Source: Colius striatus (taxonomy: Eukaryota > Chordata > Aves > Coliiformes > Coliidae). Taken from it: a DNA stretch of 64,000 nt. Both the position numbers and the translations under genes were made by a program. Each line of letters begins with the position of its first letter. The first letter of the stretch is position 1. The stretch is from assembly GCF_028858725.1 (NCBI RefSeq), contig NC_084776.1:620001-684000 (forward strand), read 5' to 3'. Below, piece after piece: positions 1,566 to 20,400 of this stretch. The notes beneath the pieces are model-generated. The model was not told the DNA's origin, ran no database searches, and was given only the letters and a program-made list of their open reading frames with translations.

Positions 1566-2937
1566 ATGGAGGGGCTTTGGGCACTCGGTGTCCTGCTGCT
1601 TTCCTGCCTGCTGGTGCCCTGCCCTGCGGGCAGCCAGACCACTCCCAGCCCTGACCAGCGTTGGCAGATGGACCCCGAGGAGGCACCATCCCAGCACCGT
1701 GCCAGGTGAGGGCACCTCAGGGCCAGGGCGTTTGGCAGTGGGGGCTGGGGCAGCCCTGGCACCACAAAGGACCGTGGCCCCTTTGCAGCTCCCTGTGGTG
1801 CTTTGCTCTGTCCTCGCCAGGCCTGTGCAGGAGCAGGAGCCCGGCGGTGCCCAGGAGGGGCTGCACTCGCGGCCCCGCTGCGTTCGCTGCTGTGAGCCGC
1901 CCAGCCCACACTTCTCCTACCCCCCCTACCAGCCCCTGCCTCAGATCAACATGACCATCCTGAAAGGTGAGGGCTGGCAGCACTGCCTCCAGCCAAACCT
2001 GGGCACCATCAGTCTGCCTGGTCTGCTGGCATCAGCCCAGGGTCAAGGCAAAGCTGGGCTCCCAGTGCCAGCTCCCTGGGGAGCCAGTGTTGACCAAACT
2101 GGGAGCGAGATGCTGGGGGTTGGTGCCTGCAGTCCAGTGCCCTGTGTGGGCAGAGGGGCAGCAGGCAGAAGATGCTCTGAGGCATGAGCTGCTTGTGCTC
2201 TTGGAGGCCTCTGGGCAGCAGCTTTGGAGGCAGCACATGAGCCCGTGGAGGGGGCAGGGGCTGGGGGGAGGGGGGTGGTCCCTGCCATCCTCACCCCTTT
2301 CTGTCAGGCAAAGGGGCTCCTCAGGCATTGGGTTTAGAGGTGGCACCTGCCTCTGACTGCACAACCATCCCTCCTGCTTTGCCCAGGTGAGAAGGGGGAT
2401 CGTGGTGAGCGAGGCATGCAGGGCAAGTTTGGCAAGACAGGGGTGGCCGGCAGCAGGGGCCACGCAGGGCCCAAGGGGCAGAAGGGCAGCGTGGGGGCGC
2501 CGGGTGAGCGCTGCAAAAGCCACTACGCAGCCTTCTCGGTGGGCCGCAAGAAACCCCTGCACAGCAACGACTACTACCAGACCCTCATCTTTGACACCGA
2601 GTTTGTCAACCTCTACGACCACTTCAACATGTTCACGGGCAAGTTCTACTGCTACGTCCCCGGCATCTACTACTTCAGCCTCAACGTGCACACGTGGAAC
2701 CAGAAGGAGACGTACCTGCACCTGATGCGCAACGGGGCGGAGGTGGTGATCCTGTACGCGCAGGTGAGCGACCGCAGCATCATGCAGAGCCAGAGCGTCA
2801 TGCTGGAGCTGCGGGAGCAGGACGAGGTCTGGGTGCGGCTCTACAAGGGCGAGCGCGAGAACGCCGTCTTCAGCGACGAGTACGACACGTACGTCACCTT
2901 CAGCGGCCACCTCGTCAAGTACAGCGGCGACCCCTGA
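1566..2937 (+). CDS. C1QTNF1: C1q and TNF related 1 (CTRP1), secreted collagen/C1q-domain protein, 3 coding exons
   Basis: Exons 1566-1705, 1821-1966 and 2387-2937 join in frame (140+146+551 nt) into 278 aa, against about 281 in human. All introns are GT-AG. Residues 1 to about 23 form a signal peptide ([16 protein letters not shown] start). A variable stretch with a Cys cluster (RCVRCC) follows, then a conserved sequon N90-M-T just before the collagen part. Residues 96-137 are 14 uninterrupted Gly-X-Y triplets. C138 and the sequence to the end form the C1q/TNF-like trimerising domain, with near-identical CTRP1 stretches such as [31 protein letters not shown] and [18 protein letters not shown]1 is an adipokine-like plasma protein that forms trimers and higher oligomers. 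The start has a good Kozak context (A at -3, G at +4), and an acceptor at 1551/1552 implies an upstream untranslated exon. ENGASE follows on the same strand, as in mammals. Confidence 0.95.
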
Positions 2938-5060: not shown

Positions 5061-8000
5061 GTCGCGGTCGGGGCCGGGGTCGGCGCCGGGGCTCGGCGGG
5101 CGCTGGCCGCGGTGCTGGCCCGGCCCGGCCCGGCCCTCACCCCCCGCCCCGCGCAGCTTCCAGCCGGCGGCGGAGTCCCGGGGAACCACCGTCCTGCACG
5201 AAACCATCAGCGCCCGTCCGCAGCCGCTGCCGGGTGAGGCACCGCGGGGACGGCACCCGCAGCTCCACCGGCTTCCAGCGGGCGCTCCCGGCTCAGTCCC
5301 TTGCCCCTCTCCCCACCCGCCCCAGCCAGGTACTTCGACACCGGGACGACGGAGCCCATCAGCTTCTTCTTGTCCGGCCTGGAGGAGCTGCTGTCCTGGC
5401 AGCCCGACAGCAACGGTGACTTCAACATCTCGGCCGTGCCGCTGGCGAAGCGAGAGCCGCCGCTGCACAGCAAGAGGCCGCGGACGCTCGTGTGCCACGA
5501 CATGCGCGGCGGGTACCTGGAGGACAGGCACGTGCTGGGCGCCGGGGAGGCGTGACAGCGGGGCTCGGCATCTCAAACCCTCTTCTGCTTGAGTTGTTTC
5601 CTAGCCAGCCCTGGGTCTGTGCTTGGTGCCACAGCCCTGCCCGGTTCTGGGGGCATGAGTCAGGCTCCTGCCCAGCCCCGCAGCCGTCTGCCCGCGTCCT
5701 TCCTGCCTTGCCCAACCCTCTTCCCTGTCTATGGCTGCAGGTTCATCCAGGGCTCGGCCACACGCAACCCCTATGTCTTCTACCACTGGCGCTACATCGA
5801 CATCTTCGTCTACTTCAGCCACCACACCGTCACCATCCCGCCCGTGTGCTGGACCAACGCGGCGCACCGCAACGGCGTCCCCGTGCTGGGTGAGGGCGGC
5901 GGCACCGGGCCCGTGGCAGCCGCTGGCCTGCTCTGTGTTTGCCAGGGCACACGGCTGACGCCGCTCTTGCGCCTCCCAGGCACGTTCATCACGGAGTGGA
6001 CGGACGGGGAGAAGCTGTGCGAGGCGTTCCTGGCCGGCGGGGAGGAGGCGTACGGCGCGGTGAGCGAGCAGCTGGCCCGCATCGCCCGGCACTACCACTT
6101 CGACGGCTGGCTGGTCAACCTGGAGAACACGCTGAGTGTGAGCCCTGGCACTCCCTGCCTCGCCTTGCCCTCCCTCAGCTCCCCCTCCTATGCATGACCC
6201 CCCTCGCCTTGTGCCGACCATCCCCGCTCTGTCCTGGCAGGCGGCTGTGGCACGGAACCTGCCGCCGTTCCTGCGGCACCTGACGGCACAGGTGCACAGC
6301 GCCGTGCCGGGCGGGCTGGTGATCTGGTACGACAGCATCCTGCAGAACGGCACGCTGCGGTGGCAGAACGAGCTCAACGACGAGAATAGGTGAGGCTGGG
6401 CCCTGCCCAACGCCTGACTTTGCCCAGGCTAAACCTCCCCTGGGTGGGGGCCGTGAGCACACCCCAAACCCGGTGCTCAGGGGTGATCAGGGAGTGGGCT
6501 GTGTGGTCTGTGGGGACAGCCACAGCACCCACCTGCTGCCCTGGCCCTCGTCCACAGGGTGTTTTTCGATGCCTGTGATGGGCTGTTCACCAACTATAAC
6601 TGGAAGGAGCAGCAGCTGGAGCAGACGCGCAGGCTGGCCGGGCCACGCCGCACCGACGTCTACGTGGGCATCGATGTCTTTGGCCGCGGGGACGTGATTG
6701 GTGGCGGCTTTGACACTGACAAGGTGGGTGTGCTGAGGCTGGGCCAGAGCGAGACCCTGGGCAGGGCTCTGAGCTCCCAGGGATGACCGTGCTGGGATAT
6801 GCTGGGCTGTTCACCCAGGGAAGCCAGAGCTGCTGGGCTGCTGATCACCCGTGGAGAGGGAGGCGGGGGGATCCCGGTGCTGCCGGCCCTGGATGGGGAG
6901 GTGCCACAGCACATCACCGTGGTGTTGTTCTGCCCCACCACTGGGCCAGCGGGACTTGGGGAAGTGGGGACAGGGCAGGTGATGAGGTGACTCACTGTGC
7001 TGCTCACTGCTCCTCTCTGCAGTCCCTGCGCCTGATCCGCCAGCACGGCCTCTCTGCTGCCATCTTTGCCCCTGGATGGGTCTACGAGCACCTGGGGGAG
7101 GAAAACTTCCTGAGCAATGAGAACAAGTGAGGGCAGCTGGGCTGAGTCAGGGCTGTGATGGGGAGACAGGCCTGGGAGCAGCCTGGGGTTGCAGGGCTGA
7201 GGCAGAGCTGCTGGCAGCCCGAGGTAGCTGGCCAGGACCTGGCTGCCCAGCCCTGCCCCTGCTGCAGCGGTGCCCAATGCCATGCCAGGGCTGTACCAGA
7301 GCTCTCTGCTTCCCCTTTCCTCCAGGTTCTGGGGCTTGCTGGCTGAGTACCTGCCCATACACAGCATCTGCACGCTGCCCCTCGCCACCTCCTTTAGCCT
7401 GGGCATGGGCACCAGCAGGTTCCTGGATGGGAAGGTGGGTGTGGGTTGATGGCTCAGCTCCAGCTGGGCAGGGGTGGACTGGGCAGAGGGTCCCTGCTTC
7501 CAGCCCCTCACCTGGCCAACTCACCCTGTCCTGCAGGAGGAAGAGACCGGTCCCTGGTACGACCTGAGTGTGCAGGAGATCCAGCCGCTCTATCCAGAGC
7601 TTGAGGGCAGGCTGAGCACCAGCTGCTGCCTGCAGGATGCCTGGTGTGGGGGCAGCTCCCTCAGGGTGCAGGGGACCATCCCCCCTGGCGAGGAGCACGT
7701 GGCCATCCGGTGAGCTGGGGATGAAGCCCTCTTGCCACCCTCTCAGCAGCAGCACAGGCAGAGCTGTGCAGCCTTGAGGCCTCGCGGTGAGCGTGCCGCG
7801 GGGCTCTCTGCCCACACTGCCCAGCAGACCTAACTCGACACATCTTCTCTTTCTCTCCTCTCTCTCTGTCTCTGTCTCTCTCTGGGTGGATTTGGGGTCA
7901 TCAGCCTTTTCTCTTTGCAGATGCCGGCGCCCCCCAAGCTCTTCCTGACCCTGCTCTACAAGCTGGAGGGGCCGCACCTGGATGAGATCACGGTTGCCCT

Positions 8001-9690: not shown

Positions 9691-9716
9691 AGTCACCCTG
9701 GTTGAAGAAAGAAATC

Positions 9717-9722
9717 TTTATT
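9717..9722 (-). promoter_or_regulatory. RBFOX3: Distal AATAAA poly(A) signal of RBFOX3
   Basis: Plus-strand TTTATT, read on the minus strand as AATAAA. A second copy at 9793-9798 lies 76 bp earlier in the transcript, on the other side of the AAT microsatellite. Either could be used. Confidence 0.5.
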
Positions 9723-9726
9723 AATA

Positions 9727-9750
9727 ATTTCAATAATAATAATAATCCTT

Positions 9751-9788
<38 letters not shown>
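9727..9788. repeat. (AAT/ATT)n microsatellite between two RBFOX3 poly(A) signals
   Basis: About 60 bp of TAA/AAT triplets with one interruption (CCTTG at about 9746-9751). The 3' part is a pure run of at least 12 AAT units. Confidence 0.9.
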
Positions 9789-9789
<1 letters not shown>

Positions 9790-11649
9790 CTGTTTATTAG
9801 AATGGTCACACCTTTGAAGCATACAGGATGGGCCGGTGCCAGCCTGCGCGCTGGCGGCCGGCGCAGGGGCTGCTGTAAGGAAGAAGCCAGTACAGCGATG
9901 GAAGGAGCTTTGTACACGGGGCGCGGGGCCGGGGCGGCCGGGGCTATGTACACCGGGAATAGAAAAGGGGGAGCTCATCGCTGGAGCATCGGGGCATCTG
10001 CAGACTATAAAGTGAGGTTTGAGGAGTGGCAGGGCCACGCGGGGCAGGGGGCTGAGCACGGAGCCACCCGTGGGACGGGGCTGCAGCCCGGGGTGGGCCC
10101 CGCAGCGCCCTGTGCCGCTGCGCACTGGACCCGGCCTGCCAGCGGCTGCAGGCCGGCCCCGCGGCTCGGGCTCGTCCTCGTGGGCTGTGCCAGCCCCCAG
10201 CCCTGGGCAACGCAAAGGCTGAGCCCCTGCGCCGAGGGCTGGTGGGGTCCCACTGTCCCAGGCAGGGACGGGTGGCCGTGAGCGTGTCCCGCGCCGCAGA
10301 ACAGGCGGGAGCAGGACTGGGGCCGTCCCCGTCCCGGCTCGGTGCAGGGGACCGTGAGCGGCGTCAGTCAGGGCTGCTCCCTGCGAGGTGGGAGCCCTGG
10401 GTGCGTCAGGGGATGGAGGGGAGGGGAAAGGGATGGCAAGCGAGTTGCAAGCTCCTCTTAACAAAAATTGCCTTTAAAAGGCAGAGGCTCGTGCCCCTGC
10501 AACGCCCAGCGCCTCAGAACGCGGCTGCGCGGCCGCCGCCGTGCGGGAGCCGAGGCCTCGCACACTCGACACGCTGCTGCCCAGTACACATGGAGCCGGT
10601 TCCCACCCCGGCACCGGTCCCAGAGCCAACGAAGGGGCAGCGTCCGCAGCGCTCCGCCGGCACCCCCAGCGCCGCCGTGCCGGGGCTCAAAGGAAGACGT
10701 GGTGCCCAGGCCCTGCGCCTGGGTGGGCAGAGGCCCCTCGGCTGCCCCGCGCCCGCTGGCACACGGCTGCTCCCTCCCTGCCGCGGCCGTGCCAAGAGGG
10801 GCCCCGCGGCCGGTCAGTGCTCGGCGCCGCGCTCCTCCGGGCCTCGCTTGCTCGGTGCGTGTGTGGACATGTGGGACTTTCACTTGGCTGTTACCGCTTT
10901 GCTTTTGTTGTTGTTGTTGCTTTGCTTTTAACTTTTTAGGTTTGTAATGTTTGATTTTTTTGTGTGTGTCTGTGGATTGTTTTTTGCCCTTCCTGGTCCC
11001 AGAAGGAAACGGCCACGGTTTCACTACAACAGAAACAGAGAGGCAGGTCTTTGGCTGGAGCAGCACACAGGGCAGCCCCCCGAGCCTCGCCCTGTGCCGC
11101 ACACCCCGTTCCTGCCTGGGGGCTGTCCCCGGGGTCCTGCACCCACCCCAGCCTGGCGCCGTCCCTGGAGCACCTCTGCCAGCTCCTCTCTCTGTTATGG
11201 GCTGAGGGGCTGCTGCCATCACACCCCTGTGTTTGTGAGCTGAGCATCTCCCCCTGCCTCGCAGAGGAGTGAGCCCTCTGCACCCCCAGCATGGGGCTTG
11301 GGCTGGAGCTGCACGGGGACTCTCGTCCCAGCTCTGGGGTTGGGGTACCACTGGGGCCAAGGGCCGTCCCTGCTCCCCATGGTCCCCAGAGGTGCCTGGG
11401 CAGGAGCTGCCCGTGCGGCGCGTGGCAGCGCCGGGGCACGGGGCAGGCGACGGTGCAGGAGCGGCGGGCGGGCGGCGGGACGAGCGGCTCGAGGGAACCC
11501 TACGGGCTCAGCGGAGCCCGGCGATGCCCAGCCCCAGGCCCCGGGCAGCGCCTGCGCTTCCTCCAGCGGCCCCGGGCTCTGTCTGCCTGGTTTGGTTTGG
11601 TGCTAGTGAGCGCTCAGTGTTAGTGGTGGGAGGGGCTGGGTCTGTCTTG

Positions 11650-11694
11650 CTAGTAGGGAGTGAAGCGGCTGTACCCTCCTCGGTATAGACTAGC
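11650..11694 (-). CDS. RBFOX3: RBFOX3 last coding exon, C-terminus [14 protein letters not shown]
   Basis: 45 nt after the acceptor TGATGTTTCAG encode [14 protein letters not shown] and TAG. It joins in phase 0 to the exon ending ...SIGTM. The peptide closely matches the RBFOX1/2 ending (RGGY.RFAPY). The human NeuN reference, as I recall it, stops at GTM, so this is a longer, family-type C-terminus that may be used alternatively. Confidence 0.85.
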   Translation of the reverse strand, partial: ASLYRGGYSRFTPY

Positions 11695-14600
11695 CTGAAA
11701 CATCAAAGATGAAAAAAAAGCCAATCAGTATTTGAGAGAGAGGCAAAGCCCAGTTCTTCCCTTCATTTTTTTCTCCTTTTTTCTTTTAAAATGCCACCAA
11801 ATTGTTTCTGTCCTTGGGACATGAGGGGCGGTCAGGGCTGTGGGCGCCCAGCGCTGCCTGGGCTCAGCGGCGGCTTGGGCTGCTGCCTGGCAGCCGAGCA
11901 CAGGCTGGCAGCCGTGGGGAGCATCGAGCCTCAGTGACCCCAGCGTGGCATTGCTGTAACTGGGCCTCCTCCTGCCTGCAGTGACCACAGAGGAGCCCAT
12001 CCCCATCCCTGCCGCAGCACCGGGCTGGCACCTGCCTGCCATCCCCTGTGGGACAGGGCTGCCTGGGGCTGGGGGTGCTGAGGGGCGCTGGGCAGCCCAG
12101 CCCCGGCGTGAAAAAAGGGAAGAAAAAGAGAGTTTGGCTTTGAGATCCCACCCATGAGTTGGATTTTTCATCTTTGATGCTGGCTGCAGAGCTGAGAGCC
12201 GCGTGCGTGCGTGGGCTGCAGGCGCCGGCAGGCACACGCCTGCTGCCTGTGCGGGATGCATGTGGGTCTGGGGATGTGGGACGAGACAGGGATGTGCGAG
12301 GACAAATGGGGACCTGGTCCCCAGGCAGGGCCCATGCAGTCAGTGTCGGGGGTAGCCAGGACCCCGCCCCTGGCATGTGTGGGCAGGACTGCACAGGGCT
12401 GCACCAGTGGGTGTGACGGGGCACGGGGTGGGTGGGGGTCTCCTCTCTCTCCTGCCTGCAGACAGAGCCTGGCAGGGGCTGCGCTGCTCCTGCCGCTGCC
12501 GCCGGCTCCCCCCGCAGCCCCTGCACCCCGCGAGCGTCCCGGCTGCTGGGCCGGGCCCCCTCCCCAGGCCGGCTGCAGCTCACATCGAGGGGCAAAGAAA
12601 GGCCGCAGGGGGTGCTCTTACCATGGTGCCGATGCTGTACGTGGCGGCGGGGCCGATGGTGTGGTGGTACGGGTCTGCCGCGGCGTACACTCTGCCGTAA
12701 CTAGGAGCAAACACAGCACTGGGTGTTAGTATCCAGGGTCGGGGGGCTGTCTCCCCTCAGCAGCCCCCCTCCCTTTGCTGTGCCCAGGAGCCCCTCGGGC
12801 TCCCCGCTTCTCCCTTTGCAGAGTGAGCCCCAGGAGAGCACGTGGGCCTTGGTTTGCAGGATGCCTTCATGGTGCCTGGCTCTGGTCTCATCCTGTGGGG
12901 CTTGAGCTGTGGGTGTGTGGGGCCGGTTGCTGCAGGAGGAAATGGGGCATCATCCCCCGGAGCAGTGCTGCGGTGCTCACCTGTCGCTGTACGCTGCTGC
13001 TGCTGCTGCAGGCTGAGCGTATCTGTAGGCAGCGTAACCCCCCTGCAGCAGAGAGAGACGTGTCAGTGAGGGGGCAGCCTGGGGGGCTGGGGAAGCTGCA
13101 CACCCCTGGGCACTGCCAAGGAGCAGCGAAGAGACCCCATGGGAGCCGGTGCTTGTGCCACCCAGCACACAGCAGCCTCATTAACCATTCCCCAGGGGCT
13201 CTCACAAACATTAACCTTAAAACATTAAACTTCCAGAGGAGAGAATGTCACCTCCCTGATCGCTTTAATGAGGTGTCATGTTAGATAAATCCTTCAGCTG
13301 CCCGCCTGAAATATCACCCACGGCTTCTTAAATACGGAGGTTAAACGTGGGTGTGAGAGGGCACCGGCGCCCGCCATGGCTGGGGACGCCACACAGGGCC
13401 CTGCGAGGGGCTGCCTGCGGCACAGGACCCACGCGGTGCCAACCCTGCCCACTCCCCTCTGCCCGGGCTCCAGCTGCCTTCCCTGGGGAAGGAGCTGGCA
13501 GGGGGCAGAGCCCAAGGCTGAGCCCCCCTGGTGCCGCTCGCTCCCAGACCCTGGCACAGCAGCACTTACGTAGATCTCGGCTCCGTAGAACCCGTCCTGG
13601 TAGACGACCCTGCAAGGAAGGTGGAGGCATCAGAGCCCAGCCTGTGCCACTGGCTGCCAGGGAGGGTTGAAATGGGGGGAGCTGCTGCTAGAGAGGCCAC
13701 CCAGGCAGCCTGAGGTCACATCCTGGGCTAGGACTCCCGGTAGCGAGGGCAGGGATGTGGGGGTGGGCACAGGGCAGGTGGTGCCACAGGGATGGAGAGG
13801 TCCAGGGCATGACCATTGCTGGGAGCAGCCACAGATCGCCATGTCTGTGCCTGACACTGGAGTGGCCGCGTGTGCCGGGACAGAGCATTCCCATTGAACC
13901 ACCCACCTCAGCCGGGGTGCCGGCCGGTGCTTTGGGGCACAGGGGCTGCTGGACCCAGGGTCAGCCCAGAGGCAGCAGCTGGGGGAAGGGTGTCACAAAG
14001 CCCAAGCCCAGGAGGTGCTGGGGGAGCTTCCGATGGCAGCGGAACTGGAGCGATGTGTTGGCAAAGGTGCCGGTGCTGGTGGGTACTCACGCGCCGTAGG
14101 TGGGGATGGGCGGGGGCGGCGGCGCAGCTCGGAAAGTGTTGTAGACGGCACGTCCTCGTCCCCGTAGGTGAGCCCCTCGGTAGGCCACGGCTGTCCCCGT
14201 GGCGGGGTAGGGGAACCCCGTTACTGCGGGAGGGAGGGAGGGATGTGGTGGGGCCGGGCGCTGTGTGGGGCCAGTGTCAGGGGGGACCCACGGCAGGGCT
14301 GGCCCCAACCCCGTGTTACCTGCGTAGAACTCGGGGCCGTAGACCGCTCCCACCACCGGGTTCAGCTTCCAGCCTGTGGGCACAGAGAGCTGGTGAGGCC
14401 GAGGGCATCCTCCCCCTGTGCTCCCCCCACCCCGGCCGGGCTCCAAGGGGCAGCAGCTCCCATCCCAGCGGCCGCCCTCCTGAATGCCTGAAGGTGTGAC
14501 GGGTGTTTGCTGCAGGAGCTGAGCAGCAGCCTGGCAGCGAGGATGCTCGGGGATGCCCCCACCACCGCAGCTCCAGCCCGTACCGTTGGTGTAAGGGTTG

Positions 14601-17402: not shown

Positions 17403-20400
17403 CTGCCGAGACAGCGGCACCAGCCCCTTACCCATCAGGGGCCCCGGGATGCTGGGGTTACCACCTGCCCCAGGGAGGGGGCCTGGTCCCCTCAGCCAGA
17501 CCCAGCCCCCTCAGCCCCAGCACAGCCTTTGCTGTCCACCCCCAACCCAGGTCTCTGTGCCATGGCAGCTCCCGGGTGGCATTGCCAGCAGCTGAGCCCC
17601 CATCTCCCCTCACTCCGGAGTCGTGACTGCCCAGTGCTTGGGGCTCAGGCAGCAGGAGGATGGAGCATCCCCTCACCCCCTCCACTGGGTCTTAATTAGG
17701 GGAGCCTGCACAGCACCTTCTCCTCCATGAAGGAAACCAGGGCAGCCCTTGGATTGGAGCCCTGTGTGGGGCAAAGCAAAGCCAGGAGAGTAACATTGCT
17801 CCAGGGGGGGCTGCAGAGCACCAGTACCCACAGAGGCAGCAGTGAAGGGGAGCAAGGCCAGGGAAGGGAGGCAGGGAAGGGCAGCCAGGAGGGATGCCAA
17901 CGGCCCCTTGGCAAACACCAGACATGGATCAATTAACTGCTAAATATTTGATTAGACCTTTTGCTCTAACTCAGCGGCTGGGCTGCCCTGGTCAAACGGG
18001 GTGAGCTGCACCCGCACCACGCGCCAAGGGCTGCCCGCTGGGGTTGGGGCTGCCAGCCTGGGCCTCTCCTGCACACCCATCCTCACAGCCCTGCATGCAC
18101 TCTCCAGCTCTCCTCTCTCACCCACATGTGTGCAGCACCGGCAGCCACAGACACCCACCGTGGCACACGGCAGCAGCTCCCGCCATGGCCAAGAGGCCAC
18201 GACCGCCTGGGCCAGCGCCAGCAGCCCCTCAGTGCTTTACAACCTGCCGTGGCAGCCACTCGCCCATGAAATACAGCTGCGGCTCAGCCCTGCAGACAGG
18301 CTCCTTAATTGTGTGTGTGGCCGATTTATGGCGTGGAGGGGCAGCGGGGGGCTGCTGGGGGGCCGCAGCTGGCAGAGCTGGCGAGGCCATCGCGCCTGCG
18401 AGGGAGGCAGCGGAGCCCGTGCTGGGGACCACGTGCAGACCCCGCTACAGATCTGCAAGTCACCGGCAGCTGCGCCAGCGCCTTCCGTGCTGACTCAGCT
18501 GCTGGGGGCCACGCCAGCCTCAGGCACCTGCCAGCACGGCCAGGGGCTGCCGGAGCTGCGGGGCGGTGCAGCCCCATCGAGCCAGGCAGCCGGGGTGATG
18601 CTCCTGCCTGCACCACTGAGGGTTTCCATCCTGTGCCCAGTGCCCGATTGCCCCTGCCTGCAACCCCTGCTCACATCTGACCCTCCCAGCCTGCGAAGGG
18701 AGCCAGCAGCAGGAGCAGCCAGGGCCGCTCCTGCATTCCCTGTGCTGGACACTCGTCCTTGAGGATGGGCACCACTGCCCAGGCGGGATGAGCCAGCAGG
18801 CAGGGGGATGAAGGTGGGTGCTGGGGCAGAGATCATCCCCACCTGCCCAAGTCTTGGGCCCCACTGGCCCCTTGCCAGCCTATCCCGACAGCCACGTTCA
18901 TATCTGTTATTAATTAGAGCCGTCGCAGTGCTTGTCAGCCTGAGTATTATTTCATTCAGGGACCATTAAGTTCCCCTGTTTTGCTGCCGGTGCTGCAGAG
19001 GTGCAGACCTATGGCTCCCAGTGCCTTCCTCCCAACAGCACTGCCCCTCCATCCCTGGGCAGGGCCAGGGCTCGGTGGTGGGGGGATGCCAGGGGCAAGG
19101 GCCCCTGGGGAGGGGTATGGCAACTGGTTTGGCTGTGCAAGGCCCATCGATGTCACAGAGAAGTGGCTGCCTCCGTTCCACACCTAACACTGCCTGGGCC
19201 CTCCTCTGTCTGCAGCTCCAAGCAGCCTGCAGTGTGGGAACAGCCCTGTCCCCAGACAGTGAGCGAGCCCCTCTGCCCCCCAACACAGCAGTGCTTGAGC
19301 CCGTACCAGAGAAACCCCTTCCCTGGGTCTCTCCTTGTGCCAAGTACCTGGGGGATCCTGGGGACCCACCTCTGCCCCACAGCTCAGGGTGCCCAGCTGC
19401 ACAGTGAGCCCTCCGTGGTGCCAGGGACAGGGGTCTGACAGGCATCCCCTGCTCACACTGCCCAGGGTGTGGGGGATGCTCCTGCCCAGCACTTTGTGAG
19501 GCATCTATATTAAAAGAAATTCTGATCATTGATAGCCTGTAGCCCTGATTTAATACAGGAGACAGATCAGTGCAGAACTCAAAGCTGAGCATGGAGCAAA
19601 GCCATCAGTATTTGACATAGCATGGGGGGCACGAGCAGCACCCCAGTGCCTCTGCTCCCCACTCTGCCCCTCTGCTTGGGCAGGATAGCCTCAGGGCTGT
19701 GGCACAGCCTTAGGTGAACCATCACGGGGCTGAGAGCAGAGGGGCTGGGATGAGGAGCTGAGGCTTTTGCCATCAAGGGGCTCTGGGAAGCGCAGGACAG
19801 GCTGCTGCATCCCATGGGCATCCTGCTGCTCCAGCTCCTCTACAGAGCACTGTGCCAAGCAGCTTGAGGAGCCCCGGAGGCCCAGGTAGCCCCCGGGAGT
19901 GGCTCCATCCAGCTGGATGCAGGAAACTCCCCAAGCCCAGCACGAGGGGCAGAGCTGGCAGGACCCTCAGCTCCCCTGACGGTGTCCCCTGCCCTGCCCG
20001 CGGCTCAGCCTCGTGCCACCAGCCCTGTGCAGCGGCTGCCGCAGCAGGCAGGGGGTAGATATCATCTTTAGCTGATTAAATGTCCCTCATTAACGAGTTT
20101 CTTTAATTAATGAAGTTTTTTTTGTTTGCTCCACTTGCTTTCTCCCCACTGCACTCTGCCTCCTCAGCACAATCCAGGCCATTTCCTTTCAAGTCATTTA
20201 GCGCGTGGGGCCGGTTCCTGCCGACGCCGCACTTTGGTGATTGTGCCTGTCAGCTCGGGGCTGACGACGCCATTTCTAACATTTGCTCCTTTCTAAGCAA
20301 ACAGCGCACCAGGAGCCCCCAAACACAGAGAACACGTCTGAGCAATGAGCTGAGCACAGAGCATCAGGCTGACGACAGGGCACGCGCTGGCCCCAGCACC

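Follow-up and report, generated by a model that had tools for sequence, protein, structure and literature searches.

A predicted long-range intronic duplex at the proximal of two candidate alternative acceptors in the last intron of RBFOX3 from Colius striatus

Background

NeuN is widely used to mark neurons. Whether mouse Rbfox3/NeuN is made in a nuclear or a cytoplasmic form is decided among the acceptors of its last intron: in the available text of Dredge and Jensen (2011, PMC3126832), joining to exon 15 yields a nuclear protein ending in -FTPY, while joining to exon 15A yields a predominantly cytoplasmic protein ending in -IGTM. A sequence-only reading of the bird Colius striatus had noticed an inverted repeat in what appeared to be the equivalent intron, with one arm upon an acceptor. 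This raises the question of whether a stem between the arms could hide that acceptor, and so be a candidate mechanism for the choice between the two forms. The two arms are short, which makes such a question of splicing control approachable by experiment. The window examined was a whole stretch of 64,000 nucleotides (contig NC_084776.1, positions 620,001 to 684,000), and all positions below are counted from its first base.

Results

The RBFOX3 locus and its two candidate acceptors

The gene on the minus strand is, on the evidence of its domains and termini, RBFOX3; it encodes an RRM (Pfam RRM_1, 8.5e-20), a Fox-1 C-terminal domain (Fox-1_C, 4.3e-30) and an IGTM/FTPY C-terminus like that of mouse Rbfox3. 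Its last intron was placed at 12621–11695 on the minus strand, with a GC content of 65%, and measured 927 nt rather than the 926 nt given previously. The donor, GTAAGA, begins at 12621 (minus strand) after an exon that ends in ...YSIGTM (12622–12700, minus strand); this exon is the equivalent of mouse exon 14, and the mouse primer e14-R matched it at 12641 (2 of 20 positions mismatched). The proximal acceptor leads into the coding part of exon 15 (11653–11694, minus strand), which begins at 11694 with GCTAGTCTATACC, supplies the -FTPY end and corresponds to the nuclear isoform in mouse. Both the sequence and the mouse primer e15-R, which matched at 11665 without gaps (4 of 25 positions mismatched), indicated that this acceptor is present.

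The distal acceptor, which had not been placed before, was found de novo. Every AG lying 3' of the donor, 1025 in all, was scored with a simple weight matrix; among the 14 of these where a stop codon would directly follow IGTM, the sole strong site was cctgcctctctgtttctgttgtag before TGA at 11023. This site opens the equivalent of exon 15A (10990–11023, minus strand; ...TGTTGTAG before TGA), which would end the protein at -IGTM and corresponds to the cytoplasmic isoform in mouse. The mouse primer e15A-R matched at 11011 (3 of 22 positions mismatched), and so a second acceptor with an immediate stop after IGTM is represented by sequence and primer match alike. The suggestion of two alternative C-termini, which is documented for mouse Rbfox3, was upheld to the extent that both candidate acceptors occur here. 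Since the mouse primers match both exons, the 16-nt arm described below would cover the equivalent of the proximal member of two competing acceptors.

Two other open frames in the window lie on the strand opposite to RBFOX3. The first (2338–2937, plus strand) contains a C1q domain (Pfam C1q, 3.6e-39) together with a collagen stretch and is presumably a C1q/TNF-related protein gene; the second (5556–6197, plus strand) contains a glycosyl hydrolase family 85 domain (3.3e-38) and is presumably an ENGASE-like gene. A simple-repeat run at approximately 9706–9790 was recognized solely by poly-I and poly-Y in the translated frames.

The inverted repeat and its inward extension

The two arms, 11701–11716 and 12164–12179, were complementary at 16 of 16 positions with a spacing of 447 nt, and hence the perfect repeat and the loop of about this length that had been reported within the last intron proved exact. 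Read on the minus strand, the upstream arm (12164–12179) is CATCAAAGATGAAAAA, the 5' arm in the transcript; the downstream arm (11701–11716) is TTTTTCATCTTTGATG, which lies 7–22 nt ahead of the -FTPY exon and constitutes the polypyrimidine tract of the proximal acceptor, as had been claimed. Complementarity was not confined to these arms. It extended inwards in collinear fashion, through CCAA/TTGG, CAAAGCC/GGCTTTG and pyrimidine/purine tracts, to give a duplex of 57 pairs, comprising 53 Watson-Crick and 4 G-U pairs.

The calculated energy of the extended duplex was -56.5 kcal/mol, which none of 2000 shuffles reached (mean = -26.3, sd = 4.3), while the 16-bp core alone gave -18.7 kcal/mol. Most of this signal came from the core; without it, the inner blocks were only modestly unusual (5 of 2000 shuffles were as good), and the middle part alone was equalled by 75 of 2000. 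When 12000 random pairs of similar size were taken from the window, GC-rich pairs had energies down to -106.6 kcal/mol; of the 256 pairs with both sides below 50% GC, none reached -56.5 kcal/mol and the nearest unrelated pairs were at -54.2 and -52.5. When the intron was searched for the sequence that pairs best with the acceptor tail, the value obtained was not matched in any of 60 shuffled introns.

The two pairing blocks coincided with the sole two AT-rich islands of the intron (12105–12184 and 11670–11839). The upstream island (12105–12184, minus strand) was mostly paired with the acceptor region; its GC content was 0.41 for 12105–12179, compared with 0.65 for the intron. The acceptor-side block (11695–11790, minus strand; GC = 0.33 for 11701–11790) contained a purine tract, CUCUCUCU, a branch-point-like CTGAT with its A at -31, the polypyrimidine tract and the AG.

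Collinear complementarity of this kind might also be the relict of an inverted duplication, in which the acceptor region (approximately 90 nt, including the first bases of the exon) was inserted upside down further upstream and has been decaying since, with the stem as a by-product of little or no effect on splicing. The plus strand at 12110–12185 indeed aligned to the minus strand at 11783–11692 across 94 gapped columns, passing over the splice junction into GGCT. The alignment score was 60, compared with a maximum of 45 among 2000 shuffles and with 29 in direct orientation, and a copy would be expected to give the observed pairs (53 of 57 Watson-Crick, 4 G-U). However, the TTTCAG adjoining the core was not intact in the putative copy, and the alignment scored 34 when the core was removed, a modestly unusual value that was reached by 6 of 2000 shuffles. 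A perfect 16-nt core amid gapped flanks suggests a core that was held rather than one that was decaying, and a selected stem would yield an equal collinear alignment. A non-functional relict was considered unlikely, although worth serious attention; duplication as the origin of the element is compatible with a function.

Predicted folding of the intron

The stem was predicted with a mean pairing probability of approximately 0.93 across four transcript contexts and at both 37 and 41 °C, and the polypyrimidine tract was paired in every context tried. These predictions favour the suggestion that the arms could form a stem over the acceptor, and under the folding model the nuclear-isoform acceptor could plausibly be masked. 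The stem was predicted once the acceptor had been transcribed; beforehand, the upstream arm was 54–60% unpaired. When the upstream arm was masked in silico, the unpaired fraction of the tract rose from 0.16 to 0.62, but that of the AG and first exon base fell from 0.42 to 0.09. Therefore, breaking the stem is predicted to expose the tract and not every element of the acceptor. The distal polypyrimidine tract was also mostly paired in the prediction (0.22 unpaired).

Folding of the intron, which had been proposed as a check, supported the local stem but not the intron at large: the entire intron was no more stable than its shuffles, 5 of 20 of which did equally well (z = -0.81). When the lowest z per window was taken in a coarse scan (30 shuffles, 45-nt step), the proximal acceptor (-3.1) did not stand out beside two others at -3.2 and -4.1; its best window in the same analysis gave z = -6.0.

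Candidate protein-binding motifs and other readings of the arms

PTB motifs are pyrimidine tracts, and a pattern of short ends is expected under PTB repression. Under a different interpretation, the AT-rich islands would be putative splicing-factor sites, chiefly for PTBP1; PTB bound to both would keep the proximal acceptor repressed in non-neuronal cells, and the complementarity would be incidental. Candidate tracts were visible in the sequence, namely CUCUCUCU at approximately 11733–11742 and a pyrimidine tract at approximately 12110–12132, and the islands that would bear them are the only AT-rich ones in the intron. In mouse P19 cells that had not yet undergone neural induction, the scant product was the short end, according to the available text of PMC3126832. 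However, PTB binding does not need a perfect 16-nt complement upstream, and CATCAAAGATGAAAAA is not a pyrimidine run. PTB sites with incidental complementarity are considered an improbable explanation.

A single RBFOX motif, UGCAUG, was found on the minus strand between 10000 and 13700; it lies at 12333–12338, approximately 155 nt upstream of the stem. Its presence was not significant, given that 23 such motifs per 64 kb imply approximately 0.3 for an intron of this size. An RNA bridge acting through this motif was rejected on the same count and by distance, the available text of PMC8052449 setting a limit of 50 nt between an RBFOX site and an arm. A small unannotated exon at the upstream arm, prompted by ctgcagccag ahead of it, was likewise rejected, because its acceptor fell outside the best 40 of the 1025 scored AG sites.

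Rarity of the repeat

Nine acceptors were tested within RBFOX3 by comparing their last 27 nt with upstream sequence; the longest match was 16 at the proximal acceptor, and none of the other eight exceeded 11. The comparison was widened to 654 strong acceptor-like sites, the majority of which are certainly not genuine acceptors, drawn from both strands of the window and of a control, with the last 27 nt of each compared with the preceding kilobase. Here, the RBFOX3 proximal acceptor again had the longest match (16), followed by a match of 12 at one site, 11 at eleven sites and lower values at 641. The control comprised 200 kb of the same chromosome, in twenty 10-kb stretches. With one low-complexity row dropped, its longest perfect inverted repeat within 1 kb, at a minimum gap of 50, was 14 nt. 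In the 1.21-Gb genome, the 16-mer was found at 8 places on either strand, two of which were the arms themselves; the chance of another copy falling inverted within 1 kb upstream was approximately 3e-6. On the other side, a genome has in the order of 10^5 acceptors, and a few matches of such length would be expected among them by chance.

Dinucleotide shuffles of the intron, taken without its first two bases, contained a 16-nt inverted repeat in 3 of 3000 cases. Across the whole window, one inverted repeat of at least 16 nt within 1 kb was observed, compared with three in 40 shuffled windows, and so, judged by shuffles at this scale, the repeat taken by itself is moderately rare at most. The assertion that it was very unlikely by chance was therefore overstated for the window, but it stands for the proximal acceptor. 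The second longest perfect inverted repeat within 1 kb in the window was 15 nt (18131–18145 and 18983–18997).

A chance match, amplified by an A or T run in both arms and by a search by eye for anything striking, might draw on those three repeats in shuffled windows and on the weakness of the middle blocks alone (75 of 2000), but it is very doubtful beside a match of 16 where 654 acceptor-like sites offer 12 as next best, a 16-mer with two of its 8 genomic places in the arms, and a maximum of 14 in the 200-kb control.

A dispersed repeat was rejected as well: a 606-base stretch, and the 17-base arm with the acceptor, each occurred at one place in the genome, in a search where common words call for caution. 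The 22-base pattern of the acceptor arm had no matches in the viral collection and none in the prokaryote collection. A search of Rfam with 10500–13000 returned one match, which scored under the gathering threshold of an archaeal family and was taken as chance.

Comparison with paralogues

Two other loci, which from their C-termini we take to be RBFOX1-like (L008, C4) and RBFOX2-like (L009, C1), lacked the 16-nt repeat in their last introns, where the longest repeat to the acceptor tail was 8 nt. Therefore, the element is probably either newer than the split of the RBFOX family, or has been lost beyond recognition in the two paralogues. When the duplex search was applied to the RBFOX1-like gene, the minimum observed at its two acceptors was reached by 37 and 2 of 60 shuffled introns respectively; for the RBFOX2-like acceptor tail, which had no long perfect repeat, it was reached by 1 of 60. 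The last of these and the better of the RBFOX1-like pairings are weakly suggestive. The two possible acceptors of the RBFOX1-like last exon, at approximately 2558 and 2636 of L008, are 78 nt apart and one of them precedes ASIYRGG; the C-terminus of this gene could likewise vary through alternative acceptors.

Discussion

The observations on this locus comprise two complementary arms and their rarity, the sequences of both acceptors, and a predicted fold. The interpretation considered most likely, if tentatively and at somewhat less than an even chance, is that the duplex makes splicing to the proximal acceptor less frequent, so that more RBFOX3 ends in -IGTM. A long-range intramolecular duplex in the last RBFOX3 intron, consisting of the 16-bp core and its inner extensions, would hold the proximal acceptor, at its branch-point region and polypyrimidine tract, against the AT-rich island upstream. 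In the paired state, this acceptor would be poorly visible to U2AF and U2 snRNP, and the donor would splice more frequently to the distal acceptor, which lies 671 nt further downstream. The product would be the short -IGTM protein, whose nuclear localisation signal lacks its second half, whereas an opened stem would shift splicing towards the nuclear -FTPY form. We infer all three of duplex formation in cells, lowered use of the proximal acceptor and regulation.

A more elaborate combination of these elements has only a slim likelihood. This would be an autoregulatory switch, in which the stem masks the nuclear-form acceptor, and its binding or opening in neurons, by PTBP1/2 at the two pyrimidine tracts, by RBFOX itself at the upstream UGCAUG, or by ADAR editing of the A-rich arm, sets the nuclear share of NeuN; the element would have been gained in the RBFOX3 lineage only, through inverted duplication of its own acceptor. 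If it were true that an inverted copy of an acceptor came to regulate that acceptor, this would show how such switches originate.

No paper joining RBFOX3 with PCCRs was found in a search of the main texts of largely open-access papers; the main text on IRBIS does not name RBFOX3. Among the papers listed for RBFOX3 and RNA structure, none concerned such a stem, judging by title. An earlier report of the stem may exist.

Mouse Rbfox3/NeuN is the same gene, with the same two C-termini produced by alternative acceptors of the last intron, and mouse primers match both exons here (PMC3126832). The accessible part of that report gives no mechanism for the choice and names no RNA structure as a regulator; its localisation experiments used cell lines carrying mouse protein constructs, and not birds. 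Rbfox1 offers a second splicing choice tied to nuclear RBFOX: its exon 19 is excluded on depolarisation, which moves RBFOX protein to the nucleus (Lee et al. 2009, as recounted in the available text of PMC3424503). That case concerns an excluded exon, however, and the RBFOX1-like paralogue here is without the repeat.

The RBFOX RNA bridge of ENAH exon 12 (Lovci et al. 2013, as described in the accessible text of PMC8052449) resembles the RBFOX3 stem in being a long-range intronic stem near a regulated exon. However, the ENAH bridge brings an RBFOX site near to its exon, whereas the RBFOX3 stem would instead cover an acceptor. Another comparison is offered by the PCCRs of the same source (2021, PMC8052449), which are defined by conservation, whereas the RBFOX3 stem is known here from one genome. 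According to its available text, PCCRs have intronic arms of at least 10 nt within 10 kb; the RBFOX3 arms form 16 bp, are 447 nt apart and have a predicted core energy of -18.7 kcal/mol. Regions on inactive splice sites were enriched among PCCRs, and 43.2% of the complementary regions that overlap polypyrimidine tracts also block the acceptor (PMC8052449). The downstream arm in RBFOX3 similarly lies on the polypyrimidine tract of an acceptor, and the stem is a candidate for a long-range intronic structure that hides an alternative 3' splice site.
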